Assembly (NCBI GenBank): GCA_014360825.1
Contig: JACIWT010000011.1
Span: 1-64,000 of the forward strand
DNA length: 64,000 bases
Reading direction: 5' to 3'
DNA from: Chloroflexota bacterium
Lineage (GTDB): Bacteria > Chloroflexota > Anaerolineae > UBA2200 > JACIWT01
Positions within the stretch are counted from its first letter, which is position 1. Each line of letters begins with the position of its first letter. The notes under the pieces are model-generated. The model worked only from the letters and a program-made list of their open reading frames with translations. It was not told the origin of the DNA and ran no database searches. Of this stretch, positions 20,745 to 60,690 are shown one piece after another. The position numbers and the translations under genes are program-made.

Positions 20745-20773
20745 TTGACACCCTGGCGGTTTGCCCCTATAAT
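20745..20773 (+). promoter_or_regulatory. Consensus sigma70 promoter of tRNA-Lys
   Basis: Perfect TTGACA, 17-nt spacer, perfect TATAAT, 23 nt before the tRNA. Confidence 0.85.
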
Positions 20774-24254: not shown

Positions 24255-24288
24255 CAGGTTTTGGAAGATGTCAACGCTCGCGCAGCAA

Positions 24289-24317
24289 TTGACAACTTTC
24301 GGCATAAATGGTATAAT
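24289..24317 (+). promoter_or_regulatory. Consensus sigma70 promoter of the GntR-led operon
   Basis: Perfect TTGACA, 17-nt spacer, perfect TATAAT, 28 nt before the regulator start. Confidence 0.85.
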
Positions 24318-24326
24318 GTATATACA
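24317..24326. promoter_or_regulatory. Putative GntR operator overlapping the -10 element
   Basis: TGTATATACA is a perfect palindrome of the GT-N-AC type bound by HutC-group GntR proteins; it begins on the last base of the -10, so binding would block the promoter and give autorepression. Confidence 0.55.
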
Positions 24327-24345
24327 AAATCTCTGGAGATGTGCG

Positions 24346-25110
24346 GTGTCCATCAATATTGACCGCGCTAGCCCGATCCCACTCTACTATCAGATCCGCG
24401 AGCAATTGCGCGAGCAGATCGCGGAGGGCATCCTCAAACCTGGCGATGCCCTGCCAACCGAGGAGCAGATCTGCACCGAGTGTGGGGTCTCGCGTATGAC
24501 GGCACGCCTGGCTCTCACACAGCTGGCGAATGAGGGGTTGGTTGTGCGCCGTCAAGGCAAGGGCACGTTCGTCGCCGCTCCGAAGGCCGTCTTCACGGGA
24601 GAGCGGTTCCCGCTGCTCAGTTACACCGAGATCCTGCAGCGGCTGGGTCTCAGAGCAGGGGCTCATATCCGTAGCCAGGAGGTGGTACCCGCGTCGCCGG
24701 GAGTGGCACGGCAATTGCAACTTGCAGTCGGTGAGCCGGTTGTCAAGATCGTGCGCCTGCGGTTAGCGGATGGAGAGCCAATGTCTTTAGAGACCTCCTT
24801 CTATCCCCATCACCGCTTCCCCACATTGGCTGAACAGGACCTGACCAACCACAGCATCTACCGCCTCTTAGAAAAAGAATACCATATCGTGCCCGCATAC
24901 GCCGTGGAGACGACCGAACTATCGGTCTCCAGCGCTTACGAGGCGGAAGCGTTGGGGATCCGTGAAGGTGTGCCCATTGTTCTGTGCACTCGCCTCAGTT
25001 TCGACGCCGAAGAAAAGCCAATTGAGTTCACGCACACCGCTCACCGTGGCGACAGATTCCGTTCCGTTGTTCGCCTTTCGCGCCAACAGTTAGGTGAAAC
25101 GCTATTGTAG
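24346..25110 (+). CDS. GntR/HutC-family transcriptional repressor
   Basis: 254 residues from GTG 24346, with GGAGA nine bases upstream; the longer frame would begin upstream of the promoter. The N-terminal winged helix has the GntR signature I-P-L-Y-Y-Q-I-R-E-Q-L-R-E-Q-I, L-P-T-E-E-Q-I-C, G-V-S-R-M-T-A-R and R-R-Q-G-K-G-T-F-V. Residues ~90-250 are the UTRA ligand-binding domain (L-E-T-S-F-Y-P, F-T-H-T-A-H-R-G-D-R). It probably responds to a sugar phosphate or acid and controls the five genes downstream. Confidence 0.92.
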   Translation: MSINIDRASPIPLYYQIREQLREQIAEGILKPGDALPTEEQICTECGVSRMTARLALTQLANEGLVVRRQGKGTFVAAPKAVFTGERFPLLSYTEILQRLGLRAGAHIRSQEVVPASPGVARQLQLAVGEPVVKIVRLRLADGEPMSLETSFYPHHRFPTLAEQDLTNHSIYRLLEKEYHIVPAYAVETTELSVSSAYEAEALGIREGVPIVLCTRLSFDAEEKPIEFTHTAHRGDRFRSVVRLSRQQLGETLL

Positions 25111-25136: not shown

Positions 25137-25526
25137 ATGCCCGCATTTGAGTCTAAGGAAGCCCTGGAGAAAGTCCTGGCGAAGTTGGCCGAGTTGGTTC
25201 AAAGCGACCCGGCTTTCATCACCGCCAGCAAAGGCCAGACCCTCACTATTGGGTATGAGTTCCCCGATCTGGAGGTCTCCTTCTACACCAATTTCCTGAA
25301 CGGCAAAGTGGAGGCAGGACTGGGTGAACCGCCTGAGGAGCCTATGATTCAACTGACTATGGACAGCGATGTCCTCGATGATGTCTTCACCGGCAAGGTG
25401 GCCGCGGCCAAGGCTGCGATGAAAGGCGATCTGGCATTCTCGGGCAATGTGATGGCCGCCATGCGCCTGCAGGGGCTAATGGCTGATTTCACACGCCTTT
25501 ATCAGCAGGCGAAGAGCAGTGCGTAA
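25137..25526 (+). CDS. SCP2 sterol-transfer-family protein
   Basis: 129 residues, AAAGGAGG upstream. The SCP2 fold is indicated by the N-terminal helix, the strand D-L-E-V-S-F-Y-T and the helix F-T-G-K-V-A-A-A-K-A-A-M-K-G-D-L-A-F-S-G, typical of bacterial stand-alone SCP2 proteins, which may bind hydrophobic ligands. Its role in a sugar-type operon is unclear. The 3' end overlaps the dehydrogenase gene by 8 nt. Confidence 0.82.
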   Translation: MPAFESKEALEKVLAKLAELVQSDPAFITASKGQTLTIGYEFPDLEVSFYTNFLNGKVEAGLGEPPEEPMIQLTMDSDVLDDVFTGKVAAAKAAMKGDLAFSGNVMAAMRLQGLMADFTRLYQQAKSSA

Positions 25527-26532
25527 GCGGCTGAATATCCTGATCACTGCCCAATTCGACGAAGAGGGCCTGGAGACCCTGCGTCGCTACGGCGAGGTAA
25601 CCTACAGTTGTTTCGGCGATGAGTCGCGCGTATTGGCGGGGCAGAAACTGGTGCAGGCCCTTCAAGGCGTACACATCCTGGTTACCGAGGTGGATCAGGT
25701 CAAGAGATATGTCTTGGCCAAGACCCCCGATCTAAAGGTCATCGCCAGTTGTCGGGGTGACCCGGTCAACATTGACGTGGCCGCAGCGACGGAGCGGGGC
25801 ATTCCAGTGCTGCGGGCCCCTGGCCGCAATGCCGATGCTGTGGCAGACCTGACGTTGCTTTTCATGCTCGCCCTCCTACGTCATTTCTTGCCCGTGGCCG
25901 CTATCCTGCGCCAGCCTGGCGACGGCATGGAGAAGTTGGCCCGCGCCTTTTTCGAGTACAAAGGTGTCGAACTGTGGGAGAAGACCGTGGGGCTGATCGG
26001 GTTGGGCGCTGTTGGACAGCGGGTAGCGAAACGGCTACAAGCCTTTGGGGCGCATGTGGTGGCTTACGACCCCTACGTCCCCGCCCACCAGGCTCACCAA
26101 ATCGGCGTCTCTCTCGTAAGCCTCGACGCCCTATTGGCCACGTCCGACATCGTCAGCCTGCACACGGTGGTCACCGACGAAACGGCCGGCATGTTCGGCG
26201 AGCGGGAGTTCCGCCTGATGAAAAAAGGCGCGTATTTTGTCAATACTGCCCGCGCTGCTTTGACCGATGAGGGGGCGCTCTATCGTGCGTTGCGCGACGG
26301 GCATCTGGCGGGCGCAGCACTAGATGTGTTCGCCGACGAGCCACCGTCACCTAATCACCCGCTGCTCACTCTGCCAAACGTGATCGCCACACCGCACATC
26401 GGTGGCAACACGCGTGAAGTGGTGATTCATCAGACGCGATTGGTTGTCGCCGATTTGGTGCGTCTATTTGAGGGCCAGCGACCGGAGAACATTGTCAATC
26501 CCGAGGTGTTGGAGCACTTCCGCTGGCCATAG
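25519..26532 (+). CDS. D-isomer-specific 2-hydroxyacid dehydrogenase
   Basis: 337 residues from GTG 25519. NAD-binding motif G-L-I-G-L-G-A-V-G at ~155, the N-T-A-R-A-A (catalytic Arg region), D-V-F-A-D-E-P (Glu) and T-P-H-I-G-G (catalytic His) are intact, as in phosphoglycerate-dehydrogenase relatives. It should interconvert a 2-hydroxyacid and a 2-oxoacid with NAD(P)H. Translation is coupled to the SCP2 gene. Confidence 0.9.
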   Translation: MRKRLNILITAQFDEEGLETLRRYGEVTYSCFGDESRVLAGQKLVQALQGVHILVTEVDQVKRYVLAKTPDLKVIASCRGDPVNIDVAAATERGIPVLRAPGRNADAVADLTLLFMLALLRHFLPVAAILRQPGDGMEKLARAFFEYKGVELWEKTVGLIGLGAVGQRVAKRLQAFGAHVVAYDPYVPAHQAHQIGVSLVSLDALLATSDIVSLHTVVTDETAGMFGEREFRLMKKGAYFVNTARAALTDEGALYRALRDGHLAGAALDVFADEPPSPNHPLLTLPNVIATPHIGGNTREVVIHQTRLVVADLVRLFEGQRPENIVNPEVLEHFRWP

Positions 26533-26563
26533 TGCAGTCGCACTTCCCAATGGAGGAATGGAT

Positions 26564-28069
26564 GTGAAACGCGATTGTGTCGTGGCGCTCGATGCTGGTA
26601 GCGGCTCAGGTCGCACTGTGATCCTGGATCTGGAAGGAAATCTGCTTGGCGCAGCGGCCGAGGAGTGGACTTTCCACGTGCCCGCCGATGAACCCTTCGG
26701 TTCGGAGTTCGATCCGGGTGAGATGTGGACCACATTGGCGCGGACCACTCGACGGGCGTTGTCGCGAGCAGGAATAGCGCCGGATTTGGTATGCGCCATT
26801 AGTGCCACCAGCCAACGTGATGGCGTCGTTTTCCTCGACGCGCAGGGTAAAGAAGTTCATTGTAGCACAAACCGCGACGCCCGCGGAGTATTACACGCTG
26901 AAGAGATCGCCAGGCAATTTGGGGAATTGATTTACCGCACCTGCGGGCGTTGGCCGCTCGGACTGGATGCCGCGGCGCGGCTGTGGTGGTTCCGCATTCA
27001 CCGCCCAGAGGTGTATGCACGCATAGCCAGGATCCAGATGATCAGCGATTGGCTGATCTACCGGCTGTGCGGTTGCACCTATTCGGAGCCAACCAATGCC
27101 AGCTCCTCGCTGCTCTTCGATGTCAGTCGCTGCCAGTGGTCGGAGGAGTTAGTCCGAGCGTTGGACTTCGCAACGGAGATCTGCCCCCCGTGCGCTTCCC
27201 CCGGCACAGTGGCGGGCACGCTGACCCCGCAAGCCGCCAAAGCCCTTAGCCTGCCAGTTGGCATTCCGGTTGCAATCGGGGCAGGCGATTCACAGGCTGC
27301 TTGTCTGGGCTGTGCTGCTTTCGACGACGGCACCACAACGGTCATCGCTGGGACCACTTTGCCCGTACAGATGGTGCTTTCCGCACCCGTCTTCGATGCA
27401 CTCCACCGCGTGCACACTGGAGCCTATGTCGTGCCAGACCACTGGGTTCTGGAGAGCAATGGCGGCATAGCAGGGGCCGCCTACCGTTGGTTCTCAGAAA
27501 CGTTCGCCCCTTCCGAGGCGGGTGGTCCAGACTTCGAGCGGCTGGAGCGCGAGGCAGCCACCGCCACCGCTGGTGGTGTGATGGCTGTGCTGGGACCGCA
27601 GGTGGCCGACTTCAGTTCACTGCCGTTCCCGCCGCCCTCGCTGTTCGTATTCCCCTTCGTCGGAGCGCTTGAGAGGCCCCTCACCCGGGGGATGTTCGCC
27701 CGCGCCGTCCTGGAGAACGTGGCCTACGCCACACGCGGCAACGTAGAGCAATTGGAGGAGATCAGCGGCAGGGTGGCTCTAAGTCTGAATCTGTGCGGGG
27801 GGCTGACACATTCGGCCACCTTGGTGCAAATCGTCGCCGATGTATGCAATCGCCCGGTGCGCGTGCCCCTGGTGCGCGAGGCCAGTAGCGTCGGAGCGGC
27901 CATCTGCGCCGCCGTGGGCGCGGGCGCGTTCCCAGATTTACGATCGGCTGCGCAGGCAATGGTCCACTGGGAGCCGCTGGTCGAGCCGGATCCGTCTTCT
28001 GCACGCCGCTACCGCGGCCTCTACCGGAAGTGGTTGGGATTGTTCGAGAAGGCACGCGGTTTACAGTAG
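26564..28069 (+). CDS. FGGY-family carbohydrate kinase
   Basis: 501 residues. GTG 26564 lies 7 nt after GGAGG, better spaced than ATG 26558. N-terminal phosphate loop V-V-A-L-D-A-G-S-G-S-G-R, then A-I-S-A-T-S-Q-R-D-G, central G-A-G-D-S-Q-A-A-C-L-G and the C-terminal L-C-G-G-L-T-H-S ATP site are present. It phosphorylates a sugar or polyol, substrate unknown. Next to a class II aldolase and a hydroxyacid dehydrogenase it likely feeds a kinase-then-aldolase pathway. Confidence 0.9.
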   Translation: MKRDCVVALDAGSGSGRTVILDLEGNLLGAAAEEWTFHVPADEPFGSEFDPGEMWTTLARTTRRALSRAGIAPDLVCAISATSQRDGVVFLDAQGKEVHCSTNRDARGVLHAEEIARQFGELIYRTCGRWPLGLDAAARLWWFRIHRPEVYARIARIQMISDWLIYRLCGCTYSEPTNASSSLLFDVSRCQWSEELVRALDFATEICPPCASPGTVAGTLTPQAAKALSLPVGIPVAIGAGDSQAACLGCAAFDDGTTTVIAGTTLPVQMVLSAPVFDALHRVHTGAYVVPDHWVLESNGGIAGAAYRWFSETFAPSEAGGPDFERLEREAATATAGGVMAVLGPQVADFSSLPFPPPSLFVFPFVGALERPLTRGMFARAVLENVAYATRGNVEQLEEISGRVALSLNLCGGLTHSATLVQIVADVCNRPVRVPLVREASSVGAAICAAVGAGAFPDLRSAAQAMVHWEPLVEPDPSSARRYRGLYRKWLGLFEKARGLQ

Positions 28070-28118: not shown

Positions 28119-28754
28119 ATGTCATCAGAAGAAGAATTGCGTCTGGAGATCGTGTCTATCCTCGAAGAACTGTTCGCTGCGCAATTGATCACTCCTACCG
28201 GTGGCAACCTCTCAGTGCGCATCACCGATGAAGAAGACGCTTTTCTCGTCACGCCGACTATGCTCTACAAGGGCGGGCTGAAGCCAGAGGACATCGTCAA
28301 AGTCAACAGCGCGGGCAAGCCTGCGAACCGCCGGCAGCGACCATCCGTCGAGACGCCTATGCATTTGGCGATCTACGCTGCGCGCTCCGACGTGGAGGGG
28401 ATCATCCACAGCCATGCTCCGCTGAGCACTGCGCTGGGACTAGTAGGCGGCAAGATCCCGGCCATCACGGTGGACGCTGCGCCGTTCATTCATACCCAAA
28501 TCGTTCCCTACGGATTGCCCGGCACACCCAAGTTAATTCAGAACGTGGTGCAGGCGTTGGAGCACAGCCCGGCGGTGCTGCTCCAGTGCCACGGTCTACT
28601 CACCGTTGGTTGGACTTTGCGCCAGGCAGCAAACCGAGCCTTGGCCCTGGAAGAGGTCGTTCGCATCTTGTTGGCCTGTCGTCTGTTTGGGCAAGAACCG
28701 GCTACCCTGCCGCAGGAGGCGCTTGCCTTCTTGCAAGCGGCAGGCGTGGCCTGA
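28119..28754 (+). CDS. Class II aldolase/adducin family protein
   Basis: 211 residues, GGAGGA upstream. Features of the L-fuculose-phosphate aldolase fold: T-P-T-G-G-N-L-S-V-R, the zinc ligands in I-H-S-H-A-P and the later L-L-Q-C-H-G-L-L-T histidine, and the acidic catalytic residue position in V-E-T-P-M-H. It would cleave the phosphorylated ketose made by the neighbouring kinase, or act as an epimerase. A second, diverged class II aldolase is at 34116-34715. Confidence 0.88.
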   Translation: MSSEEELRLEIVSILEELFAAQLITPTGGNLSVRITDEEDAFLVTPTMLYKGGLKPEDIVKVNSAGKPANRRQRPSVETPMHLAIYAARSDVEGIIHSHAPLSTALGLVGGKIPAITVDAAPFIHTQIVPYGLPGTPKLIQNVVQALEHSPAVLLQCHGLLTVGWTLRQAANRALALEEVVRILLACRLFGQEPATLPQEALAFLQAAGVA

Positions 28755-28774: not shown

Positions 28775-30733
28775 ATGCCGAATGGCTACCGGGGAAAAGT
28801 CCTCTTCGTTGATCTTTCTACTGGCCGTATAGAGGCGGAGACCTTGCCCGAAGACGTCTATCGTCACTATCTGGGTGGCTATGGCCTGGGCGCGTACATA
28901 CTTTACGAACGAATGCCTCGTGGAGCCGACCCACTCGGGCCGGACAATATCCTGGGGTTCCTGCCCGGGCTTCTCACTGGCAGCGGAGCGCTTTTCAGCG
29001 GGCGCTATATGGTTGTGGGCAAGTCGCCATTGACTGGGGGATGGGGCGATGCCAACTGCGGTGGACATTTCGGCCCAGCCCTGCGCGGCACAGGCTATGA
29101 TGGGGTTTTCATCAGGGGTGCTGCGGAACATCCTGTGTACCTCTACGTGGATGCAGAGCGTGTGGAACTGCGCGACGCAGGAGAACTCTGGGGCCTGGAC
29201 TCTGCTCAGACCCGGGAGACGATTCGCCAAGCCACTTCGCCCGATGTGCAGGTGGCGTGCATCGGCCCAGCGGGCGAGCAAGGCTCGCTCCTGGCAGCCA
29301 TTGTCACGGATGGTGAGCGGATCGCGGCCCGCTGTGGCCTGGGTGCGGTGATGGGAGCCAAGCGGCTGAAAGCCGTCGCCGTGCGTGGCAAGGGGCACCC
29401 TCCTCTGGCCGACCCTCAGGCGTTTGGGAAAGCAAACGCAGTGTACCGCCGTCTGTTCCAGAGCCGTCCATCGCGCTGGGCCTCTCTTATCCCGGGCTTC
29501 CTCGCCCGCTTTCTGCCCCTCCTCCGCCGCCTCCGCGCCAGACTCAGTGGCGGACCGGTCCAGATGGTGATTGACTCCTATCGCCGCTACGGCACGGCAG
29601 CAGGGACCGCAGCCCTGGTCGAACTCGGTGACACACCGGTGCGCAATTGGACCGGCATCGGTTTCCGTGATTTCCCCCTCCCGCTCTCCGAACGGTTGAG
29701 CGATGAGGCGGTCATCCGCGACAAGATCAAGCCGTACGCCTGCCACTCCTGCCCGGTGGCTTGCGGCGGGATCATCCGTCTCCCCGATGGCACGACCGGC
29801 CGCAAGCCAGAATATGAGACCTTGGCCGCATTGGGCCCGTTGGTGATGAACAGCGATCTGCGGGTGGTGGAGCAATGCAACCAACTCTGCAACCTGGCAG
29901 GGCTGGACACTATCTCCGTGGGTGTGGCCATCGCCTTCGCTATGGAGTGCTACGAAAAGGGATGGCTGCCGCAAGAATTGGCCACTGAACTGCCTTTGCG
30001 CTGGGGCGATGGGGAAGCGCTCGTCGAACTGGTGCGCCGCATCGCACGGCGGGAGCCAGGCCTGGGGGAATGGCTGGCCGACGGGGTGCGACGGGCAGCG
30101 GAGCGCCTAGGGCCGGAGGCTCAAGCAGCCGCTATGCACGCTGGCGGACAGGAATTGGCAATGCACCGCGGCCTCTATGAGCCGAATGTGGCCTTGGGCT
30201 ACCAGGTGGACCCTGCTCCCGGACGGCATACCTCGACCCTTTCTGGCATCGCCGGGGGACCGGCATTCGCTCCCTACTTTGCGTTGCAGGGGTGCAAGCC
30301 CGCTGCTCGCTACGACTACGCGGCCAAAGGCAAGACGATGGCGATCGTCATCTCGGTGCTGCGGGCCTTCGATTCCCTAGGATTATGTCACTTCGCGCTG
30401 ATGATGGGATCCCCGCCCTTTCTGGAATGGCTGAACGCCGCCACCGGCTGGGGATTCGACGAGGCGGAGTTCTTCCGCGCCGGCAAGCGCATCCAGGTGC
30501 TACGTCACGTTTTCAACGCCCGCGAGGGATTGCCAGCCCAGTTCCCTCTTCCAGCCCGCGAGCGGGGCGAACCACCGCAGGAGATAGGGCCGGTGGCGGG
30601 CATAATACTGGATATGGAGGCAATGGCCAGGGGTTATTTTGAGGCCATGGGCATCGATCCGGCGACGGGCTGGCCGCTGTCGGAGATGGTGAAGGAGATT
30701 GATATTGACAGGGAGATATCAAGCAAATTATAA
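28775..30733 (+). CDS. Aldehyde:ferredoxin oxidoreductase (tungsten/molybdenum bis-pterin enzyme)
   Basis: 652 residues. N-terminal domain with Y-x-G-K-V-L-F-V-D-L-S-T-G and the pterin-binding G-K-S-P-L-T-G-G-W-G-D-A-N-C-G-G-H-F-G. The 4Fe-4S cluster ligands are C323, C326 and C330 (Y-A-C-H-S-C-P-V-A-C) plus C538 in L-D/S-L-G-L-C. It oxidises aldehydes to acids and reduces ferredoxin, an oxygen-sensitive reaction of anaerobes. As the last gene of the operon it may oxidise the aldehyde released by the aldolase. Confidence 0.93.
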   Translation: MPNGYRGKVLFVDLSTGRIEAETLPEDVYRHYLGGYGLGAYILYERMPRGADPLGPDNILGFLPGLLTGSGALFSGRYMVVGKSPLTGGWGDANCGGHFGPALRGTGYDGVFIRGAAEHPVYLYVDAERVELRDAGELWGLDSAQTRETIRQATSPDVQVACIGPAGEQGSLLAAIVTDGERIAARCGLGAVMGAKRLKAVAVRGKGHPPLADPQAFGKANAVYRRLFQSRPSRWASLIPGFLARFLPLLRRLRARLSGGPVQMVIDSYRRYGTAAGTAALVELGDTPVRNWTGIGFRDFPLPLSERLSDEAVIRDKIKPYACHSCPVACGGIIRLPDGTTGRKPEYETLAALGPLVMNSDLRVVEQCNQLCNLAGLDTISVGVAIAFAMECYEKGWLPQELATELPLRWGDGEALVELVRRIARREPGLGEWLADGVRRAAERLGPEAQAAAMHAGGQELAMHRGLYEPNVALGYQVDPAPGRHTSTLSGIAGGPAFAPYFALQGCKPAARYDYAAKGKTMAIVISVLRAFDSLGLCHFALMMGSPPFLEWLNAATGWGFDEAEFFRAGKRIQVLRHVFNAREGLPAQFPLPARERGEPPQEIGPVAGIILDMEAMARGYFEAMGIDPATGWPLSEMVKEIDIDREISSKL

Positions 30734-30812
30734 TTATTAAACAGCAGCTCAAGAGGTCCGAACAAGTACAACTATAGTGTGCAAAAGGATGACGCGCACA
30801 GAGGAGGATAGC

Positions 30813-32897
30813 GTGAGTGAGGTACGACTACGATCACACTTAGACAGTCGTTCCCGTAGTATTCTCATGCTACTCCTGCAGTCTGAGATGCCATTGACTG
30901 CATCTGACATCGCGTCTCGGCTCAGCATGACCCCACGTACGGTGCGCTACAGACTTCGTGTTGCCGAAAAATGGTTGCAGAGTAGAGGCGCTCGCTTAGT
31001 AGCGAAACCCGGCTGGGGAACCCTAATTGATGCCCCTCGTCAGACCAAGAAACGTCTCATTAGAGAATTAAGCGGCCTGACTGGTTATGCCCCTCTATTG
31101 TCACGCACTGAGCGATTACATGTTCTTACCTTATACCTCTTGACTAGTAATCTGCCGTTGCTGGCCCAGCAAATGGCGTGCGAATTGAGCGTCTCGCGCA
31201 GCACTGTTTTGAAAGACCTGGACAGTGTTGCGAAATGGCTTCGGAAGTACGATCTCTCTCTGGTCAGGAGACCAAATTTTGGCTTCACGGTGAGCGGACG
31301 GGAGAAAGATTTTCAGGAAGCAATCGTGAACCTCTTGCTTGAGAGTATAGGGGAGGCCTTTTTACTGCCTTCATGCACAGGCTCTAAGGCGACCCAGTCG
31401 GCACTAACATGGAGTAACGCTGGTATTCAACATTATGCACGTGCGTTCCTCGACAATCTAGATTTGAGGCATTCTAGGTTATTAGTTGCACTGGCGGCAA
31501 CCGATATTGATATGCGATTTACAGACAGAGCGTATATTGTCACTGTATTGCATCTCGCTATTCTAATGCAACGAGCTCGGCAGGGACGACACTTAGACGT
31601 TTCCCCCGAATTTATAGAACAAGTGAAGAAACGGCAGGAGTTCCTTGTGGCAAAGAAAGTGGCCGAAAGGGTCAAAGACTACACGGGTGTCTCACTTACC
31701 GAGTCAGATGTCGCTTACATTGCAATGCGGTTCTTGGGTGCCGAGAGAGCACAAGGCGTAGGTACTACCGCTGGGAAAAAAGCAGAGAACGAGGGGATTG
31801 CACCAGAGGTACCTACCATCGTTCGCACTATACTGGAGAGGGTTTCTTTTTCTTTGCACCCCTGTCTGCTGGTTGATCAAGAGTTGATTCACAACTTGGT
31901 GGCCGATCTGACATGGTTGCTAGAGCACCTGCGATATGACATGCCTATCAGAAACCCCCTATTGATGAACATTCGAAGACAGTATCCCCGTATCTATCAA
32001 GTTGCTTGGGAAAGTTGCACATTTCTTGGTGACAGGCTGAGAAAGCCAGTGCCAATGGAGGTCGTCGGCTACATTACTATGCACCTTGCAGCCGCAATGG
32101 AACGGTTACGTGTCCCTAGGCGGGCGAATCGACGGGTTTTAATCGTTTGTCATGCAGGTATCGCTACGGCCTCGCTGCTGGAGTCCAGAATACAAGCGGA
32201 GTTTCCCCAGGTCGAGATTGTGGGGGTGGTATCAGCCTCGGAAGTAGAGAAATCACCTGACTTGAGCGAGATAGACGCAATAATCTCCACCGTACCAGTG
32301 GAGGTCAGAGACCTCCCTACTATAGTGGTCAATCCTCTTTTGAACGATGAAAGTATAGCTAAACTCAGGGCGTTTCTAAGCAAAGAAGATGCCCCGATCG
32401 CTTCAAGAAAGCAGGCTGTGCTCTACAAAACGAATGAGCCCTCCTTGCCGCATCTCCTCACTGCTGATACAATTAGGCTTAAGATACCCGTTCATAGCTG
32501 GCCAGAAGTGGTTTCCCGAGCGGGTAAATTGCTGCTTGACATTGGAGCGATAGAAGCCAGCTACATCCAGGCAATGAAAGACATGATACTGCAATATGGT
32601 CCTTACATGGTCGCTTGGCCAGGGATCGCTCTGCTTCACGCGCTTCCCGAGAATGGAGTCAAGCAGGTATGCATGAGTCTGGTAACGTTGCGAGAACCGG
32701 TCGCCTTTGGGCATCCTAACCACGATCCGGTCGATATAGCCATTGCTCTGGGCGCTGTAGACAACTACTCACACCTGAAGGCGTTAGGACAACTACAGCA
32801 ACTTTTGGAAACCCAGGAAGCCGTAGATAAGATCCATAATGCAGTCGACGTGTACCAGGTCGTAGATCTGATATCTAATTCGTTTTTTAATGAATGA
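30813..32897 (+). CDS. PRD-containing PTS transcriptional activator (MtlR/LicR-like) with EIIB- and EIIA-like domains
   Basis: 694 residues from GTG 30813 with GAGGAGGAT just upstream. Two N-terminal winged-helix domains (L-T-A-S-D-I-A-S-R-L-S-M-T-P-R-T-V-R and Q-Q-M-A-C-E-L-S-V-S-R-S-T-V) show it binds DNA rather than RNA. Two PRD domains follow (~185-430; M-H-L-A-A-A-M-E-R in the second), then an EIIB-like domain with phospho-cysteine I-V-C-H-A-G-I-A-T-A, then an EIIA-like domain with I-A-L-L-H-A-L-P-E. Its activity should follow PTS phosphorylation. It converges on the PTS/RuBisCO-like operon, its likely target. Confidence 0.9.
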   Translation: MSEVRLRSHLDSRSRSILMLLLQSEMPLTASDIASRLSMTPRTVRYRLRVAEKWLQSRGARLVAKPGWGTLIDAPRQTKKRLIRELSGLTGYAPLLSRTERLHVLTLYLLTSNLPLLAQQMACELSVSRSTVLKDLDSVAKWLRKYDLSLVRRPNFGFTVSGREKDFQEAIVNLLLESIGEAFLLPSCTGSKATQSALTWSNAGIQHYARAFLDNLDLRHSRLLVALAATDIDMRFTDRAYIVTVLHLAILMQRARQGRHLDVSPEFIEQVKKRQEFLVAKKVAERVKDYTGVSLTESDVAYIAMRFLGAERAQGVGTTAGKKAENEGIAPEVPTIVRTILERVSFSLHPCLLVDQELIHNLVADLTWLLEHLRYDMPIRNPLLMNIRRQYPRIYQVAWESCTFLGDRLRKPVPMEVVGYITMHLAAAMERLRVPRRANRRVLIVCHAGIATASLLESRIQAEFPQVEIVGVVSASEVEKSPDLSEIDAIISTVPVEVRDLPTIVVNPLLNDESIAKLRAFLSKEDAPIASRKQAVLYKTNEPSLPHLLTADTIRLKIPVHSWPEVVSRAGKLLLDIGAIEASYIQAMKDMILQYGPYMVAWPGIALLHALPENGVKQVCMSLVTLREPVAFGHPNHDPVDIAIALGAVDNYSHLKALGQLQQLLETQEAVDKIHNAVDVYQVVDLISNSFFNE

Positions 32898-32983: not shown

Positions 32984-33448
32984 CTATGTCTGAATTTTCT
33001 GCTGCTGAGAGTGTTCCCGGATGTCTCGAATCCATTTCTCCATGCCCTGCCTTGACTTGATCGCGTAAAGCCATCTCAGGCTGTACTGGGCATCTTTGCG
33101 CAAATCCGTCAAATATTCACCGTATTCTGCTTCCAGCCATTGTACCCACCCTGGCTTGATCCAAACCGGGGGATACTTGCCAAATGTAAATGCAACATAA
33201 ATAAGGAATCCTGTCCAGACCATGCAGAGGGGCCAACCTAGAACTCTTAGCAACACCTGACGGTTGCCGTAACCTATAAGCAGAATCCCAACCGGCATAA
33301 AGGTATAGACAAGTTGAGATTGAGGTCTCCAATACCAGTTTTTGTAAACACCCAAACGGGCTAGTATGCCAAGCCCCAGGAACGCGCAACCAAGCAAAGA
33401 GATCATGGCATCACTAACCAACGTATCCAGAAGCCGCGTAGTTGTCAT
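32984..33448 (-). CDS. Small membrane protein of unknown function, end of the PTS operon
   Basis: 154 residues from ATG 33448 (AAGGAGACGAGG upstream). Three hydrophobic segments in the first ~100 residues (S-L-L-G-C-A-F-L-G-L-G-I-L-A, Y-T-F-M-P-V-G-I-L-L-I-G-Y, W-P-L-C-M-V-W-T-G-F-L-I-Y-V-A-F), then a charged cytoplasmic-type tail with W-L-E-A-E-Y-G-E-Y-L. Not recognised; gene order suggests a link to the PTS operon. Confidence 0.65.
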   Translation of the reverse strand: MTTTRLLDTLVSDAMISLLGCAFLGLGILARLGVYKNWYWRPQSQLVYTFMPVGILLIGYGNRQVLLRVLGWPLCMVWTGFLIYVAFTFGKYPPVWIKPGWVQWLEAEYGEYLTDLRKDAQYSLRWLYAIKSRQGMEKWIRDIREHSQQQKIQT

Positions 33449-33518
33449 CCTCGTCTCCTTCAATTTCGTTGTGACGAGGTTAGAAAAATCCAATTGGTAG
33501 GCAACCGCCCCCCGTCCA

Positions 33519-33746
33519 TTAAGGGCGGTTTTTGAACTTCTTCTCTTGTTCTTTGAAGAAATCCTCCAAGGGGCATTTCTCAGTGTTAAGACAGATTTTG
33601 GATTCAGTCTTGCTTAGATGCCTGTTAACGCGTCTGCATACGATATAAGGCCCGAACTTGGGTATCAAGCGGTATTCACACTCTTTCATAAAAGTTTCGC
33701 TCACTCTCGCGCAAGATCCACAAACTTGGAGCAAGGACATACACAC
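33519..33746 (-). CDS. Small cysteine-rich protein, unknown
   Basis: 75 residues with Cys at C-G-S-C, K-E-C, I-V-C and C-L-N-T-E-K-C, a spacing that could bind a metal. No clear ribosome site for the GTG/ATG starts at 33746/33740. It lies between the EIIB and membrane protein genes on the same strand. It may be a real small gene or chance. Confidence 0.4.
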   Translation of the reverse strand: MCMSLLQVCGSCARVSETFMKECEYRLIPKFGPYIVCRRVNRHLSKTESKICLNTEKCPLEDFFKEQEKKFKNRP

Positions 33747-33800
33747 ATAGAGAAGAAAGGAAACTTTCCGCTAGGTTTCCCCAGGTCGCATAGTTGGATG

Positions 33801-34088
33801 CTAGTCTTCCATCGCTTTGAGACAGTCCAATATCTGCTGCTTGACAGGTCCAGTATTGGTGTTGGTCACAAATGGGACCCCATTGAACACCGGGCACCCC
33901 GGATCGGGAACGGGCGTTGTTGAAATAACGATGTCTGGCTTGTAATTTGGCAACTCATTTATCTTACACTTGATAAATTCCGCTCTGATGCCTTCGTTCG
34001 TCAGCCACTCTTTCACACGATTGGTAACAATCGTAGAGGTAGCTATGTTCGCTCCGCAACAGATAGCGATTGAATATTTCTTCTTCAC
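33801..34088 (-). CDS. PTS galactitol-type EIIB component
   Basis: 95 residues, the usual length of a free EIIB. GTG start at 34088 behind AAAGGAG. The phosphorylation loop is I-A-I-C-C-G-A-N-I-A-T-S-T near residue 10, with two adjacent cysteines, one being the phosphocysteine. It passes phosphate from EIIA to the sugar carried by the EIIC at 34929. Confidence 0.9.
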   Translation of the reverse strand: MKKKYSIAICCGANIATSTIVTNRVKEWLTNEGIRAEFIKCKINELPNYKPDIVISTTPVPDPGCPVFNGVPFVTNTNTGPVKQQILDCLKAMED

Positions 34089-34115
34089 GTGACCGCTCCT
34101 TTCCGTTTTCCCACG

Positions 34116-34715
34116 TTAATGCTGAGGTAGCGTCGTCACACTTCCCATAGCCTGCGCGTAGAAGACGATCTGTGCCGCCTTTTCTAGAGTGAGGACGTTC
34201 TTAACGGCGAGTTCGATGGTTTGTCCTGCAACCAACACCCCGTGGTTCTTCAGCAACACAGCATTTGCTTGCCCGAGCACCCTGCCTATGTTTTGTGCAA
34301 GGAGTTCAGTTCCCAAGGGTGCATACTCGGCACAAGGGACCGCGCCACCCAGTGTTTCCATGATTTCCAGAGCATACGGAATAGGCATCCCTGCTACTGC
34401 GAATGCTGTCGCGAAAGGGCTGTGCGAGTGGATGACACATTGCACATCAGGACGTAAGTTGTAAATGATCTTGTGCATTGGCACACCGGAGGACGGTTTG
34501 AGCTCACCGCGGATAACTTTTCCCTCGAAGTCCACAACTACAAGCATCTCTGGCGTTACTTGTCCAGCCTTAACACCCGCCGGGGTAATCAGCATCTGAT
34601 CTGAATTGGGCAAACGCACACTCAGATTACCATCACGCTCGAGCAAACCGTGTTCGAGCAGTTCTCTCCCAGCCTTGGTCAATCTTTCTCTCAACTCTCT
34701 TTCTTTTTCATCCAT
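34116..34715 (-). CDS. Class II aldolase (L-fuculose/ribulose-phosphate aldolase-like) of the PTS operon
   Basis: 199 residues, GGAGGGGG upstream. Motifs L-E-R-D-G-N-L-S-V-R, T-P-A-G-V, I-H-S-H-S-P (zinc), A-P-L-G-T and L-L-K-N-H-G-V-L-V (zinc) are intact, closer to the classic L-fuculose-1-phosphate aldolase pattern than the copy at 28119. It likely cleaves the sugar phosphate produced after PTS uptake and oxidation. Confidence 0.9.
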   Translation of the reverse strand: MDEKERELRERLTKAGRELLEHGLLERDGNLSVRLPNSDQMLITPAGVKAGQVTPEMLVVVDFEGKVIRGELKPSSGVPMHKIIYNLRPDVQCVIHSHSPFATAFAVAGMPIPYALEIMETLGGAVPCAEYAPLGTELLAQNIGRVLGQANAVLLKNHGVLVAGQTIELAVKNVLTLEKAAQIVFYAQAMGSVTTLPQH

Positions 34716-34750
34716 AATACCCCCTCCAAGTCAGTCATTCTACAACTTGC

Positions 34751-34776
34751 AAGGGGCCAAACACACAAGGCCCCTT
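34751..34776 (-). promoter_or_regulatory. 5'-UTR hairpin upstream of the aldolase gene
   Basis: AAGGGGCC and GGCCCCTT, perfect 8-bp stem with a 10-nt loop, between the internal promoter (34836-34864) and the aldolase. No U-tract follows, so an attenuator, RNA-processing site or mRNA stabiliser is more likely than a terminator. Confidence 0.5.
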
Positions 34777-34835
34777 ACAGGCATCTCTCCATCTTCCAAA
34801 CAGGCAAGTATGACAAATTCACTTACTAACCAATT

Positions 34836-34864
34836 ATTATATCCAGACCATGGGGAACTGTCAA
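34836..34864 (-). promoter_or_regulatory. Perfect sigma70 promoter inside the PTS operon
   Basis: On the minus strand TTGACA (34859-34864), 17-nt spacer, TATAAT (34836-34841). It would drive the aldolase, EIIB and the two small genes separately from the upstream part. Confidence 0.8.
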
Positions 34865-34916
34865 AGCCCGCCCGTGCTAAGGGCTCGTAGGCGGTCTCAC
34901 GTCCCCCATGGTCTGG
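34843..34916. promoter_or_regulatory. Inverted repeat pair with one arm in the promoter spacer, operator candidate
   Basis: CCAGACCATGGGG at 34843-34855 and its exact complement at 34904-34916, 48 nt apart. The first arm fills most of the -35/-10 spacer of the promoter at 34836-34864. A shorter nested stem AGCCC/GGGCT lies between the arms. Confidence 0.65.
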
Positions 34917-34928
34917 TGTGACCATGCT

Positions 34929-36311
34929 CTACTTTTCAGCCTCCATATCAATTGCGGCGCAGCGAGCAGGTTCGTCCCGCACCCACCACCAGATCAGGAA
35001 GTAAGTAGCCAAGATAAAGATGCCCACGAGGAGCTGCCACATAGCCCCCTTTCCTACCAACGGCTGCATGATCAGGACCAGCACCCAAGGGAAGAATTGT
35101 CTGCCGGCTAGCATATCAGTGGCCAACATGCCCTCGGGTAGTTTGGCCCCAATCAGCTTGAACCCTTCGTGCGCGTATTCGGCAACTATTGTGGTCCCGT
35201 ACAGAATGACGGCCATGATAAAGAGACCGCCGATCAGAGTGCGGACCACATTCCCCTTGGAAGGAGCTACCGCCCAACAGATGGGGAAGAAAATGGATGC
35301 CAGCATAGAGTAAGGCAGAGTCCCATTCCCAGGTAGGATTATCGCCAGCAGCAAAGTGATGGGCACCAAGAAATAAGACACAGCGAGAGTGGTGGGGTGA
35401 CCCACGATCAGCGCCGCATCCATGCCAATATAGATCTCACGGCCAGGGAAACGCTGGGTAACATAGTCGCGGATGCCATCTGCCAAGGGGATCAGCCCCT
35501 CTACAATTAGGCTGATCACTCTGGGCATGATGATCAGACCAGCGGCCATAGTCACACCCAGTTTCAAGATTCCCTGCAAGTTGTACCTAGCCAGAGCACC
35601 AATGACGATGCCCATAATCAAACCAATAACCGAGGGTTCGCCGAATACGCCGAAGCGCTTCGCAAGATCCTCTGGGGTTGCCTTCCAGTCCCTGACACCT
35701 GGGATCTTATCCAACACCTTATTGATAGCGTAGACATAAGGCGCCCAAGCAATCGTGCCAGAATGCGCGAGTGTGATGCCAGGGATGTTAAAAGTTTGAG
35801 GGTCGGCACACGCCGGGTAAGCCCAGTCAGCCAACTTGTAAGTAACGTAAGCAGTCAAAACGGCAATGGCGAGGGAAAGCGGAACATTCTGGGTCAACAG
35901 GTAAGGGACTGCAGCAGCAAAAGCAAAGTGCCAGTAATTCCAGATGTCAATGTGGAAAGTCTTGGTAAGGTTAAGGGCTAACATAATGAGGTTCACTACT
36001 AGAATTAGGGGTATGATAAACATCGAGGTAGGAACCGCCCAGGTCATTGCCGCGAGGCCGCCGATATCCAGGGCCTTGAATTGTAAGTGCAAGTTATCTA
36101 CCATGGCCTTGGCCGCAGGCCCCATACTTCCTGTGATTAGTGAGACGATAGTACTGATGCCGATCAAACCCATCCCGGTCATGAGACCAGCCTTGAATGA
36201 TCGGCCAAATCCCTGGCGCATAACAAGGCCAAAGACGGTGATCACAATGGGCATCATCACTGGAGCCCCTGCATCCAGTAGCCATTTTACGACAGTTCTT
36301 ACCGCTTCCAT
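34929..36311 (-). CDS. PTS galactitol-family EIIC permease
   Basis: 460 residues, GGAGGG upstream, about ten to twelve membrane helices. Family landmarks: D-A-G-A-P-V-M-M-P-I, the N-L-T-K-T segment, T-L-A-H-S-G-T-I and the P-G-R-E-I-Y-I-G-M-D-A-A-L-I-V-G-H-P-T-T loop typical of GatC/SgcC proteins. It imports and phosphorylates an alditol or similar sugar with the EIIA (38865) and EIIB (33801) of the same operon. The natural substrate is not shown by the sequence. Confidence 0.92.
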   Translation of the reverse strand: MEAVRTVVKWLLDAGAPVMMPIVITVFGLVMRQGFGRSFKAGLMTGMGLIGISTIVSLITGSMGPAAKAMVDNLHLQFKALDIGGLAAMTWAVPTSMFIIPLILVVNLIMLALNLTKTFHIDIWNYWHFAFAAAVPYLLTQNVPLSLAIAVLTAYVTYKLADWAYPACADPQTFNIPGITLAHSGTIAWAPYVYAINKVLDKIPGVRDWKATPEDLAKRFGVFGEPSVIGLIMGIVIGALARYNLQGILKLGVTMAAGLIIMPRVISLIVEGLIPLADGIRDYVTQRFPGREIYIGMDAALIVGHPTTLAVSYFLVPITLLLAIILPGNGTLPYSMLASIFFPICWAVAPSKGNVVRTLIGGLFIMAVILYGTTIVAEYAHEGFKLIGAKLPEGMLATDMLAGRQFFPWVLVLIMQPLVGKGAMWQLLVGIFILATYFLIWWWVRDEPARCAAIDMEAEK

Positions 36312-36356
36312 CGATCTACCCTCCTCTCAAATTGTAGAAATCGTCTTGCCAAAAAT

Positions 36357-36374
36357 CAAATAACCCGTTATTTG
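36357..36374. promoter_or_regulatory. 18-bp perfect palindrome upstream of the EIIC gene
   Basis: CAAATAAC-CC-GTTATTTG. On the transcribed strand a run of T follows, so it could be a weak terminator/attenuator or a protein-binding site. It overlaps the end of a five-codon leader frame. Confidence 0.55.
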
Positions 36375-36385
36375 TCGAATTGCAT
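36368..36385 (-). other. Five-codon leader reading frame with complete Shine-Dalgarno
   Basis: ATG-Q-F-D-K-TAA, directly overlapped by an 11-nt full anti-16S complement (AAGGAGGTGAT at 36384-36394). It ends in the palindrome at 36357-36374, 57 nt before EIIC. It might load ribosomes for EIIC or act in attenuation; too short to be sure it is translated. Confidence 0.35.
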
Positions 36386-36420
36386 CACCTCCTTACACAA
36401 CGCCAAAAGCTCGGTTTTGC

Positions 36421-37479
36421 TTATGACATGATCAATCCCACTTTCATTGCTTCCGGTGTCCCATGGATGCGGAAAGCCCTATCAATCTCCTCAAAAGGTA
36501 GCACTGGCCGGCGAATCTTAGATACTTGAACTCGACCACTGTTGATCAACTCGAGCGCGCGCTTGAAGTACTTAGGGCTGTAGCTGCGCGTGCCGGTCAG
36601 ATGAATCTCTCGATAGTGAATCGTATTAGGTTCTACGGTGATTCTCAAGTCCTCAGGATAAGTGCCAGCATAAATATTGACAATGGAGTATACGCCGGCC
36701 ATCTGTAAAGCTTGTTCTGTCGCAGCAGCTTGAGCACTGCCGCCCACAGTGACTATAACCACGTCCGCGCCGCGCCCGGATGGGCCCGGCGCCCATTTCG
36801 TCCAATGCCTGACCGCTTCGATGGGATCGGTCTTCGAAGCATTTATCACTATGTCAGCACCCATCTCCTTGGCTATATCACACCGACTTTGGATCAAATC
36901 AATGCCCATCACCTGGGCACCTAATAGATGGCATACCTGCACATGCATACAGCCCATAGGCCCAAGCCCTATCACAACCACCTTCTTACCTAGAGTGACT
37001 TTACTTCTCTCCTGGTCAGCCCTGAATATGCTCGCTAGTGGCTCCGTGACCGAAGCATCGCCGAACGATGTCCCCTCCGGGATCTCCAAAACAGAACTCT
37101 CTTTTACCACGGCGTACTCACCAAATCCGCCGTGATTATTCTGTAAGTTCTCGCAGTGAGAGTATAGAAACTCCCGGCAGTTCTCACACTGAAAGCACGG
37201 CGTCCACGACTGGGGTACAACGCGCATGCCCGGTTTAATTCTCTTCACATTTTTGCCCACTGCTTCAACAATACCAGCATACTCATGGCCTGGGTGCTGG
37301 GGTTTGTCAGGAGGAGGAGCTTTAACTAGCCCACGGAAGATTCTCAAATCGCTGGGGCAAACAGACGCTTCTTTCACGCGAATCAACACTTCGTCATCCT
37401 TAGGGACAATCATTGGTAGTTCTACAATTCGCACATCCCCCTCGCCGTATACTAGAGCACGTCGAAAGGTTTTGCCCAT
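36421..37479 (-). CDS. Zinc-dependent medium-chain alcohol/polyol dehydrogenase
   Basis: 352 residues. Catalytic zinc site V-C-P-S-D and H-P-G-H-E-Y-A-G, structural zinc cysteines C-F-Q-C-E-N-C-x7-C (one ligand-spaced set), and NAD-binding V-V-V-I-G-L-G-P-M-G. Of the sorbitol/threonine dehydrogenase type. It probably oxidises the phosphorylated polyol delivered by the PTS, as galactitol-1-phosphate dehydrogenase does in the gat operon. Confidence 0.9.
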   Translation of the reverse strand: MGKTFRRALVYGEGDVRIVELPMIVPKDDEVLIRVKEASVCPSDLRIFRGLVKAPPPDKPQHPGHEYAGIVEAVGKNVKRIKPGMRVVPQSWTPCFQCENCREFLYSHCENLQNNHGGFGEYAVVKESSVLEIPEGTSFGDASVTEPLASIFRADQERSKVTLGKKVVVIGLGPMGCMHVQVCHLLGAQVMGIDLIQSRCDIAKEMGADIVINASKTDPIEAVRHWTKWAPGPSGRGADVVIVTVGGSAQAAATEQALQMAGVYSIVNIYAGTYPEDLRITVEPNTIHYREIHLTGTRSYSPKYFKRALELINSGRVQVSKIRRPVLPFEEIDRAFRIHGTPEAMKVGLIMS

Positions 37480-37515
37480 GACAAATCTCTTCCTCTCCGT
37501 GGTTGGGACTAGTCT

Positions 37516-38799
37516 TTAGTATCGCTTCGTTGCAGGCCTCTTATAGATGCCCCATAGTGCAACTGCTTCGCCCAGTTCTTTATGTTCTTTAGCCGCTTCC
37601 TCGAGCGGAATATCAGACATGACAGCATCAATTGCTTGCCGAAGCGCTTTGACTCCCGCCGCAGACCCGGAGGGATGGCCATGCACCGCCCCCCCCCCCC
37701 CCACCATGACATCCAGACCGTAACTCTCAATGACAGTGGGTACTAAGCCTGGTACGGCCGAGGAAAGAATGAATATGCGTTCTATGCCCGGTATAGGCGC
37801 CTGCAGAATGTGCTTGCTTCGAATTGTTGGGGCAAAGGCTCCACCCTCTCCCCACTTTCCCCAGGTACCACCTGATAGAGCCACATCCGCACCAGCGAAC
37901 CTAGCGAGCTTGTTCCACACCATAGGGCTTATGCCAGTGTAGCCTGACATACCACAAGGATGGAACAGCAGTGGCACATTGATATTGGGATCTTCGGCAA
38001 CAGCTCTGAGCATCTCGATGCCAGAGATGAAGTTGACCATCAATGCATTGGCGCCATGCTCAACTGCCCATTTGGCTTTCTCAAGTTGCTTGCGAACCGT
38101 ATCTGTCGTGCTAATAAAATAGAGCACTTTCTTGCCCGTTTCCTCTTCGGCTCGCTTCAGAGCAGCCATGACCTCCATAAGCCGCTCCCTGAAACTACAG
38201 TTGTAGGTTTCACTAATCATTTCGTCGTCTTTGATAGTGTCTACACCGGCCACAGCAACCTCATAACAAAGATTGCCAATTTGTTTAGGCGTCAGTCCGA
38301 CTTTTGGTTTGATCATGCAGTTTACAAGAGGGCGTTGGGGGACTTCAAGCAATTTGCGTATCCCAGAAACCCCGAACTTCGGGCCAGGAAGTTGCTTGAC
38401 GAAGGCGGCAGGCAGGTCTATATCTAATAGTTTAATTTCCCCTGGCATGCCCAAGATATTCCCGCCAATCCCAGTCAGCATAGCAGCAGTGCTACCTAAA
38501 TACCCTGTGGGCCCGCGCATGGGAAATGCCAGCCGTACGACAGCAGCCTGCCAACCCTCGTGTTGGCTTTCAACGGGATAATAGCCAACAACCCGGGCGC
38601 TGAGCGCCTCTCTCACTTGCGGCGTCTCGCCCGGAAAGTCAATCCATCCCCCCGTCGAGGCTTCGAGTGCCATATAACCCACAACCTCTAAGTGCTCGTA
38701 CGCTTCCTGTTCAAAATAATAGGTAGCTATTATATAATCTTCTGGAGTGATACCCTCCATGGTGTTTTCAAAGATATTCGGGTCATATAGCGTTTTCAT
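37516..38799 (-). CDS. RuBisCO-like protein (RuBisCO large-subunit superfamily, form IV-type)
   Basis: 427 residues from ATG 38799; AAGGAGG lies upstream inside a longer GTG frame. The catalytic barrel signature is clear: M-I-K-P-K-V-G-L (K164), the metal-site segment T-I-K-D-D-E with carbamylatable K190, D192 and E193, L-L-F-H-P-C-G with H280, G-G-T-W-G-K-W-G (K315 at the loop-6 lysine position) and the phosphate-binding V-G-G-G-G-A-V-H-G-H-P-S-G. So most enolisation residues are kept while the sequence is not a CO2-fixing RuBisCO. Characterised relatives act in methionine salvage or in apiose/isoapionate-phosphate breakdown. In a PTS-dehydrogenase-aldolase operon an enolase, isomerase or decarboxylase step on a sugar phosphate is likely. 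Confidence 0.92.
   Translation of the reverse strand: MKTLYDPNIFENTMEGITPEDYIIATYYFEQEAYEHLEVVGYMALEASTGGWIDFPGETPQVREALSARVVGYYPVESQHEGWQAAVVRLAFPMRGPTGYLGSTAAMLTGIGGNILGMPGEIKLLDIDLPAAFVKQLPGPKFGVSGIRKLLEVPQRPLVNCMIKPKVGLTPKQIGNLCYEVAVAGVDTIKDDEMISETYNCSFRERLMEVMAALKRAEEETGKKVLYFISTTDTVRKQLEKAKWAVEHGANALMVNFISGIEMLRAVAEDPNINVPLLFHPCGMSGYTGISPMVWNKLARFAGADVALSGGTWGKWGEGGAFAPTIRSKHILQAPIPGIERIFILSSAVPGLVPTVIESYGLDVMVGGGGAVHGHPSGSAAGVKALRQAIDAVMSDIPLEEAAKEHKELGEAVALWGIYKRPATKRY
37689..37702 (-). repeat. 14-nt homopolymer (G14 on the coding strand) in the RuBisCO-like gene
   Basis: Encodes the four glycines of the phosphate-binding loop with GGG codons only. A change of one base would shift the frame and truncate the last ~60 residues. 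Confidence 0.9.
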
Positions 38800-38864
38800 T
38801 AAGGTAGTTTCCTCCTTTCTGCTCACAGCAACTCGAGAAGGAAAAGGTGTGCGGAATTCCGTTC

Positions 38865-39344
38865 TTATTCTCCTTTCCCCAAGGCTTTTTCGAGCTCCAT
38901 GACCAAAGCCCGGCGCTCTGTCGTCGACAGGACCCTCTCAAGAAAGTGCGTGCACCCTAAAAGTGTAGACAATTTCTGCAACCAGGTTACTTGCATATCC
39001 GGGTCATTCAAGGCAAATAAGAATACGAGCCGGACCGGAAGTTCATTTTCGGGATTACCCATCTCTCGGAACGCGACGGGCTCTTTGAGAGTAGCGACTG
39101 CAAGTGCAGACCGCTTACAGTACTTCGCATCCTCATGGGGTATAGCCACCGGAATGGCACTAGGCAAACCTGTAGGGAACTTACACTCTCTTTCTAACAC
39201 GGCCTCAACAAATCCGTCAGTAACATAGCCTTTTTTCACTAAACTTCCCGCCATTTTCCCAATCACTTCCTCCCTGTTTCTGGCCTCAAGATCAATAAAG
39301 ACCAAGTCCTCCTCAATCATCACTTCACGTCCATCAGGCATCAT
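38865..39344 (-). CDS. PTS EIIA component (fructose/galactitol type)
   Basis: 159 residues. The phosphorylated histidine is H70 in A-I-P-V-A-I-P-H-E-D-A, followed by A-L-A-V-A-T-L-K-E-P-V-A-F, both standard for EIIA-fructose/galactitol domains. GAAGGTGA precedes the ATG. First gene of the minus-strand PTS operon; its upstream region should hold the main promoter. Confidence 0.9.
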   Translation of the reverse strand: MMPDGREVMIEEDLVFIDLEARNREEVIGKMAGSLVKKGYVTDGFVEAVLERECKFPTGLPSAIPVAIPHEDAKYCKRSALAVATLKEPVAFREMGNPENELPVRLVFLFALNDPDMQVTWLQKLSTLLGCTHFLERVLSTTERRALVMELEKALGKGE

Positions 39345-60600: not shown

Positions 60601-60690
60601 CCCCTCACCCTCCTTCGCTGACTGTGCAGAAGTCAACGTTTTTCTCTCCCATGCGCTCGTATCCGCGTTGGACCCGCAGGGCAGCGAGGT

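Follow-up and report, generated by a model that had tools for sequence, protein, structure and literature searches.

The window, a stretch of 64,000 nucleotides from a Chloroflexota bacterium (JACIWT010000011.1, C11 among the contigs of a genome of 2.9 Mb), carries a gene for a RuBisCO-like protein (RLP) inside a phosphotransferase system (PTS) operon. By its aligned residues, this RLP has kept the enolisation machinery of RuBisCO and has lost the site for the second phosphate of ribulose-1,5-bisphosphate (RuBP), and it is the sole member so far of a new RLP lineage, found in a gene setting that is also new. Known RLP reactions are few, being confined to methionine salvage, the 5'-methylthioadenosine (MTA) shunt and apiose breakdown, and the reaction of the RLP of the window is probably an undescribed rearrangement of an imported sugar phosphate. 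We tentatively read the operon as serving the catabolism of a PTS-imported polyol, or a related sugar, in which the RLP would act as a Mg2+- and carbamyl-lysine-dependent enolising enzyme, a plausible proposal that falls short of being probable.

Six genes follow one another on the minus strand from 39344 to 33801, as defined by open reading frames (ORFs) and Pfam cut-offs, and a regulator gene lies beyond them on the other strand (AldII_b and AldII_a denote the minus-strand and plus-strand class II aldolase-family proteins of the window):

38865–39344, minus strand: PTS EIIA of the fructose/mannitol/galactitol type (PF00359, 100.6 bits; best NCBIfam model fruA, 66.3 of the 103.5 bits required; GatA, 61.4 of 139)
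37516–38799, minus strand: RLP, 427 amino acids, ATG start after AGGAGG (PF00016, 169.3 bits; PF02788, 36.5 bits)
36421–37479, minus strand: zinc-dependent medium-chain dehydrogenase (PF08240 and PF00107)
34929–36311, minus strand: PTS EIIC of the galactitol family, EIIC-GAT (PF03611, 248.3 bits; TIGR00827, 382.7 of 542.2)
34116–34715, minus strand: class II aldolase/epimerase family protein AldII_b (PF00596, 168.5 bits)
33801–34088, minus strand: galactitol-like PTS EIIB with the Cys motif CCGANIATSTIV (PF02302, 29.6 bits; GatB, 44.8 of 95)
30777–32897, plus strand: PRD regulator of the MtlR/BglG type, with helix-turn-helix, Mga, EIIB-like and EIIA domains (Pfam), convergent with the operon

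An earlier sequence-only reading of this DNA had listed the same six genes, and all of them are found at the places it gave, above their Pfam cut-offs. It also had the operon facing a PRD activator, and the two do lie on opposite strands, in an arrangement that is tail to tail. From EIIA to EIIB, the intergenic gaps measure about 65, 36, 109, 213 and 27 bases. Genes for EI and HPr are present on contig C4 of the genome, and the phosphate chain is therefore complete. The description of the PTS as galactitol-type holds at the level of the Pfam families; a galactitol assignment was rejected, with EIIC, EIIB and EIIA all scoring below the galactitol-specific cut-offs. Likewise, the zinc dehydrogenase scores 154.7, 133.8 and 116.4 bits against the NCBIfam models of IolM, Tdh and GatD, each far below its cut-off. 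Between the PRD and EIIB genes, an ORF at 32984–33493 (169 amino acids) that by eye looks like a membrane protein matched no family in Pfam or NCBIfam.

The longest ORF of the RLP opens at a GTG (38826), and the ATG at 38799 follows a AGAAAGGAGG motif. Counting from this ATG reproduces exactly the residues listed in the sequence-only reading (K164, K190, D192 and E193 of the K190–E193 segment, H280 and K315), and all of them are present, as is the GGG-x-x-HGHP loop (G369, G370). Membership of the RuBisCO superfamily lies far beyond chance (PF00016, 169.3 bits against a cut-off of 30.1, E-value 1.6e-49). A phmmer comparison with solved RLPs gives an E-value of 3e-60, with MtnW proteins as the nearest PDB entries, and the protein falls below every NCBIfam equivalog cut-off, including those for MtnW (NF007095, 263.1 of 409; TIGR03332, 226.9 of 513.6), form III RuBisCO (231.6 of 497) and OiaX (177.5 of 700). 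The 50 VIA-align rows shown for an AlphaFold model of the RLP are all RuBisCO or RLP structures (Z 26.5–30.2, root-mean-square deviation 5.5–7.0); the model, built from 3 sequences with a mean predicted local distance difference test (pLDDT) score of 64 and loops below 50, is too weak for active-site loops and served for fold assignment only.

The active site was compared across 44 aligned sequences in spinach numbering, and is interpreted here through the established roles of its residues in RuBisCO. The RLP keeps E60, W66, N123, K175, K177, K201, D203, E204, H294, K334, S379, G403 and G404, among which the RuBisCO catalytic set of K175, K177, K201, K334, D203, E204 and H294 is complete (7/7). 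It carries substitutions at R295 (to proline, Pro281), H327 (to leucine, Leu308) and G380 (to alanine). In RuBisCO, R295 and H327 hold the second phosphate of RuBP, and their loss therefore makes a substrate with one phosphate likely. Taken at the level of sequence, the RLP probably acts on a sugar monophosphate as an enolising isomerase or epimerase. K177 and K334, the lysines that true RuBisCO employs around the carboxylation step, occur together in four rows only, those of the window RLP and of the form I, II and III RuBisCOs. Clade A, an uncharacterised group of RLPs introduced below, has K177 and a serine at 334, and a second group, clade B, has K334 and a cysteine at 177. The four MtnW-group rows all show G60, K123 and S334 and lack K177, positions that read E60, N123, K334 and K177 in the window RLP. 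R295 persists in the OiaX-type rows, as does H327 in most of them (glutamine in the OiaX row itself). The window RLP is thus alone among the RLPs compared in keeping both K177 and K334, yet lacks the second phosphate site. It is nonetheless highly improbable that it adds or removes CO2 at the enediol form of a ketose monophosphate derived from PTS import, using K175, K177, carbamyl-K201 and K334 without that site.

In a tree of 40 rows (L050_A, L060_A, Terrarub_RLP and L031_D being omitted as partial or near-identical), the window RLP joins clade A with support of 100/98, apart from MtnW, the OiaX-type RLPs and forms I–III, which make up a group of their own (99/96). Its position outside forms I–III and the loss of the second phosphate residues both speak against a true RuBisCO. 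Forced groupings were compared by the approximately unbiased (AU) test on a tree from which L033_D, L044_A, L045_A and FormII_Cereibacter were also left out. Grouping with the OiaX-type RLPs is rejected (p-AU 8.9e-5), in line with the low score against the OiaX model; grouping with MtnW costs 27 log units at a p-AU of 0.057. The superfamily tree that the sequence-only reading had asked for therefore places the RLP outside the MtnW clade when left free, and the AU test makes membership of that clade disfavoured rather than excluded. This bears on the possibility that the RLP is a methionine-salvage enolase of 2,3-diketo-5-methylthiopentyl-1-phosphate (DK-MTP-1-P) that sits in a PTS operon by chance. 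Such an enolase would account for the top NCBIfam and PDB scores, both of which go to MtnW, for the presence of mtnA in the genome and for the absence of a firm rejection by the AU test. It is very unlikely given how far the MtnW cut-offs are missed, the four diagnostic positions at which the MtnW group differs and the well-supported union with clade A; moreover, no salvage gene is found among the neighbours scanned, and mtnA lies on another contig.

Draws of 100, 400 and 396 genomes, a genome-contig scan and plasmids yielded no relative of the RLP that exceeded 43% identity (the genome draws used in this analysis overlap, and their numbers are not additive). The genome-contig scan returned three loci only, at 39–40% identity; viral contigs and phages gave no homologue; and none of 366 plasmid records had an RLP match of at least 60%, the highest among the matches listed being 35.5%.

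In the pathway proposed for the operon, PTS import would yield a polyol phosphate, of which the zinc dehydrogenase would oxidise one hydroxyl to give a ketose phosphate. The RLP would then enolise this ketose monophosphate and either shift the carbonyl along the chain or epimerise, producing a ketose-1-phosphate and thereby occupying the position in the route that a kinase holds in the galactitol pathway. A class II aldolase, for which AldII_a is a likelier candidate than AldII_b, would split this product into dihydroxyacetone phosphate (DHAP) and an aldehyde, which an aldehyde oxidoreductase and a hydroxyacid dehydrogenase encoded nearby could process. The RLP reactions covered in a review are DK-MTP-1-P enolisation, the 1,3-isomerisation of methylthioribulose-1-phosphate, and either decarboxylation or transcarboxylation/hydrolysis of 3-oxo-isoapionate-4-phosphate (PMC6302742). 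Migration of the carbonyl on a monophosphate has a precedent in the Rhodospirillum rubrum RLP, which interconverts 5-methylthioribulose-1-phosphate and 1-methylthioxylulose-5-phosphate (PMC6302742). Among these, 1,3-isomerisation would fit best, because a GatD-type dehydrogenase is expected to leave its carbonyl far from the phosphate and a FucA-type aldolase needs the carbonyl next to it, a gap that the RLP could bridge by moving the carbonyl.

The sequence-only reading had left isomerisation and decarboxylation side by side, and of the two the former is favoured. In the decarboxylating version, the RLP would resemble OiaX/OiaT and decarboxylate or transcarboxylate a beta-keto acid sugar phosphate: the dehydrogenase would make a 3-keto acid phosphate, the RLP would free CO2 and the aldolase-family protein would finish the route. 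K334 is kept, as it is in the OiaX-type rows; a dehydrogenase and an RLP adjoin a four-carbon acid sugar kinase in Streptomyces; and a class II protein devoid of its glutamate, as described below for AldII_b, might suit a decarboxylase. Decarboxylation of the OiaX kind is rather unlikely all the same, because R295 and, in most cases, H327, both lost in the window RLP, are retained by the OiaX-type RLPs, because these adjoin the acid sugar kinase in several records, and because the forced grouping is rejected. No such kinase is found among the window neighbours scanned, and the OiaX model is matched at about a quarter of its cut-off. Furthermore, the galactitol-family PTS is not known to carry sugar acids.

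The last step of the isomerising route involves two aldolase-family proteins. AldII_b retains the metal-binding histidine motifs HSH and KNHG, and its catalytic Glu/Asp position is occupied by glycine (SSGVPMH). That position is aspartate in all 28 of its homologues from the class and glutamate or aspartate in seven of seven further aligned proteins, and glutamate occupies it in the solved chains shown for FucA and DrdA. In the DrdA study, the conserved glutamate is described as steering proton transfer (PMC6079011). AldII_b and EIIB are preceded by a promoter of their own:

34836–34864, minus strand: perfect sigma-70 promoter TTGACA-17-TATAAT before AldII_b and EIIB (motif scan)
30705–30734, plus strand: perfect sigma-70 promoter before the PRD gene (motif scan)

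Perfect promoters of this kind occur four times in the window, against 0.00 expected from 100 shuffles, at 34836–34864, 20745, 24289 and 30705; for the one at 20745–20773, no cognate gene is assigned. An operator-like repeat, CATGGTCTGG, around the promoter at 34836–34864 was set aside, since at one mismatch it is no commoner than chance. Because of the glycine at the catalytic position and the separate promoter, aldol cleavage by AldII_b, which the sequence-only reading had assigned to the operon, appears doubtful. Its best subfamily score is to the L-ribulose-5-phosphate 4-epimerase model (173.2 of 251, below the cut-off), and its homologues in the class bear the aspartate typical of epimerases. 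Both points would suit a pair of epimerases, with the RLP acting at C3 and AldII_b at C4 to convert an unusual ketopentose-5-phosphate into a common one without any aldol cleavage. This pairing is distinctly unlikely: the aspartate in question is replaced by glycine in AldII_b itself, and no RLP is known to epimerise plain ketopentose phosphates at C3.

If the proposed polyol route does end in aldol cleavage, AldII_a is the more likely agent by its residues. It belongs to an adjoining plus-strand cluster of possible partners:

24268–25110, plus strand: GntR/UTRA regulator heading the cluster (domain scan)
25519–26532, plus strand: D-2-hydroxyacid dehydrogenase (PF02826, 198.1 bits)
26444–28069, plus strand: FGGY sugar kinase (nearest models autoinducer-2 (AI-2) kinase, 320.9 of 528, and xylulokinase, 204.9 of 380.25)
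28119–28754, plus strand: class II aldolase AldII_a, catalytic Glu intact (Pfam and alignment)
28775–30733, plus strand: aldehyde:ferredoxin oxidoreductase family protein (PF01314, 296.1 bits; PF02730, 252.9 bits)

The perfect promoter at 24289 implies that the true start of the GntR gene is probably downstream of the listed one.

Several observations weigh against polyol catabolism through an enolising RLP. The first phosphate site is also altered, with T65 changed to glycine and a two-residue deletion that takes out the G381 position. The regiochemistry of the zinc dehydrogenase is not fixed by its sequence scores, AldII_b is devoid of its catalytic acid and, with EIIB, could be transcribed separately from the RLP, and the grounds for expecting the plus-strand cluster to cooperate with the operon are those of adjacency alone. 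The clade A clusters lack any PTS gene, and their chemistry is itself putative. Above all, the pairing of RLP and PTS is seen in one genome only. No PTS gene stands beside the RLP in any of 35 RLP stretches (23 compared by BLAST of the window proteins against ORFs and 12 of clade A by tblastn), and no RLP is found in 10 other stretches with a galactitol-family PTS, drawn from 41 places with an EIIC match (three are the same genome's other copies and one ends at 3.8 kb, at a contig edge). The neighbourhood comparison suggested by the sequence-only reading thus yields no second case, leaving a conserved linkage unsupported.

These counts, and the several unrelated gene contexts occupied by RLP clades of the same class, are what one would expect if the adjacency were incidental, the RLP serving another pathway and being inserted among, or merely co-transcribed with, the PTS genes. 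The RLP gene is the second in a run of six on one strand, however, 65 bases from EIIA on one side and 36 bases from the dehydrogenase on the other. This placing speaks for a functional association, as do the full length and intact catalytic residues of the RLP, and we give incidental adjacency a small chance.

Clade A, the sister group, comprises 23 loci of the same class (L041–L050, L060 and L161–L172) at 40–43% identity to the window RLP. Its clusters run in the order GntR/UTRA regulator, sugar-isomerase-like TIM barrel, RLP, pyruvate dehydrogenase (PDH)-like E1 alpha, E1 beta, E2 and rhamnulokinase. Among stretches that extend far enough on the relevant side, the TIM barrel is found upstream of the RLP in 17 of 18 (1 kb or more available), E1 alpha downstream in 19 of 22 (any sequence available, the one remaining stretch stopping at the RLP itself) and rhamnulokinase downstream in 12 of 17 (5 kb or more available). 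RhaA is present in L050, and a bacterial microcompartment (BMC) shell protein and an aldehyde dehydrogenase in L048. The product of rhamnulokinase is rhamnulose-1-phosphate, and a ketose-1-phosphate is therefore a reasonable substrate class for the clade A RLPs. The conserved cluster suggests that rhamnose-type catabolism includes an RLP step that is as yet undescribed. The accessible text of a paper on the rhamnose regulon does not mention RuBisCO (PMC3870299). For the window itself a rhamnose pathway was rejected, no rhamnulokinase scoring above the cut-off anywhere in the genome; an FGGY-type kinase ORF at 59044–60636 of the window weakly matches the rhamnulokinase model.

PDH-like E1 alpha and E1 beta genes also stand beside galactitol-family PTS genes in 6 of the 10 PTS stretches (L139, L142, L144, L145, L147 and L148), and a sugar-binding regulator of the DeoR/LsrR type is present in the three of these six that were checked. 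A specific tie between the clade A E1/E2 genes and this PTS family was considered and dropped, the E1 scores being near those of ordinary pyruvate dehydrogenase, and no pathway is drawn from it. The same genome holds a second RLP, of clade B (G000:C8:138270-139505, corresponding to L053 9270–10505), whose neighbours are a class III aminotransferase and an FGGY kinase that lies close to the xylulokinase model; this trio, to which no function is assigned, is conserved in L051 and L052, and in L034 the kinase is likewise present, the aminotransferase being nearer to HemL.

In keeping with the claim that a PTS-fed RLP pathway is undescribed, a search of the open-access literature, outside which most subscription papers fall, found no description of an RLP in a PTS operon. 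The operon supplies, in its PTS and dehydrogenase, a ready route to the likely RLP substrate. Once found, the reaction would extend the chemistry of the superfamily and bear on the origin of RuBisCO from enolising sugar enzymes, and clade A points to a second RLP function, in rhamnose-type clusters.

Several known systems invite comparison. The galactitol operon of Escherichia coli comprises the GatABC PTS, the zinc dehydrogenase GatD, a tagatose-6-phosphate kinase and an aldolase of the fructose-bisphosphate (FBP) type. The window shares the PTS family and also has a zinc dehydrogenase of the GatD type, but its parts score below the galactitol cut-offs, and it has an RLP and a FucA-family protein instead of the kinase and FBP-type aldolase, neither of which is found among the window genes scanned. 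MtnW (2OEK, 2ZVI) provides the closest solved structures by sequence and fold and shares the R295P and H327L changes, but it lacks the E60, N123, K177 and K334 of the window RLP and forms a separate clade in the free tree. OiaX, the 3-oxo-isoapionate-4-phosphate decarboxylase, is also an RLP of sugar catabolism that keeps K334; it differs in retaining R295, in having serine at 177, in belonging to another clade and, in the one record examined, in being associated with ABC transport rather than a PTS. The clade A RLPs, like that of the window, keep E60, N123 and K177 and have lost R295 and H327, but they have serine at 334 and neighbours that include the sugar-isomerase-like protein, PDH-like E1/E2 and rhamnulokinase, and no PTS. 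Lastly, the R. rubrum RLP, a 5-methylthio-D-ribulose-1-phosphate 1,3-isomerase of the MTA-isoprenoid shunt, serves sulfur salvage (PMC6302742), is not known to work with a PTS or a polyol dehydrogenase, and is likened to the window RLP by reaction, its sequence lying outside the rows compared. It likewise uses a form IV fold on a ketose monophosphate, and the carbonyl migration that it carries out is the chemistry proposed here for the window RLP.

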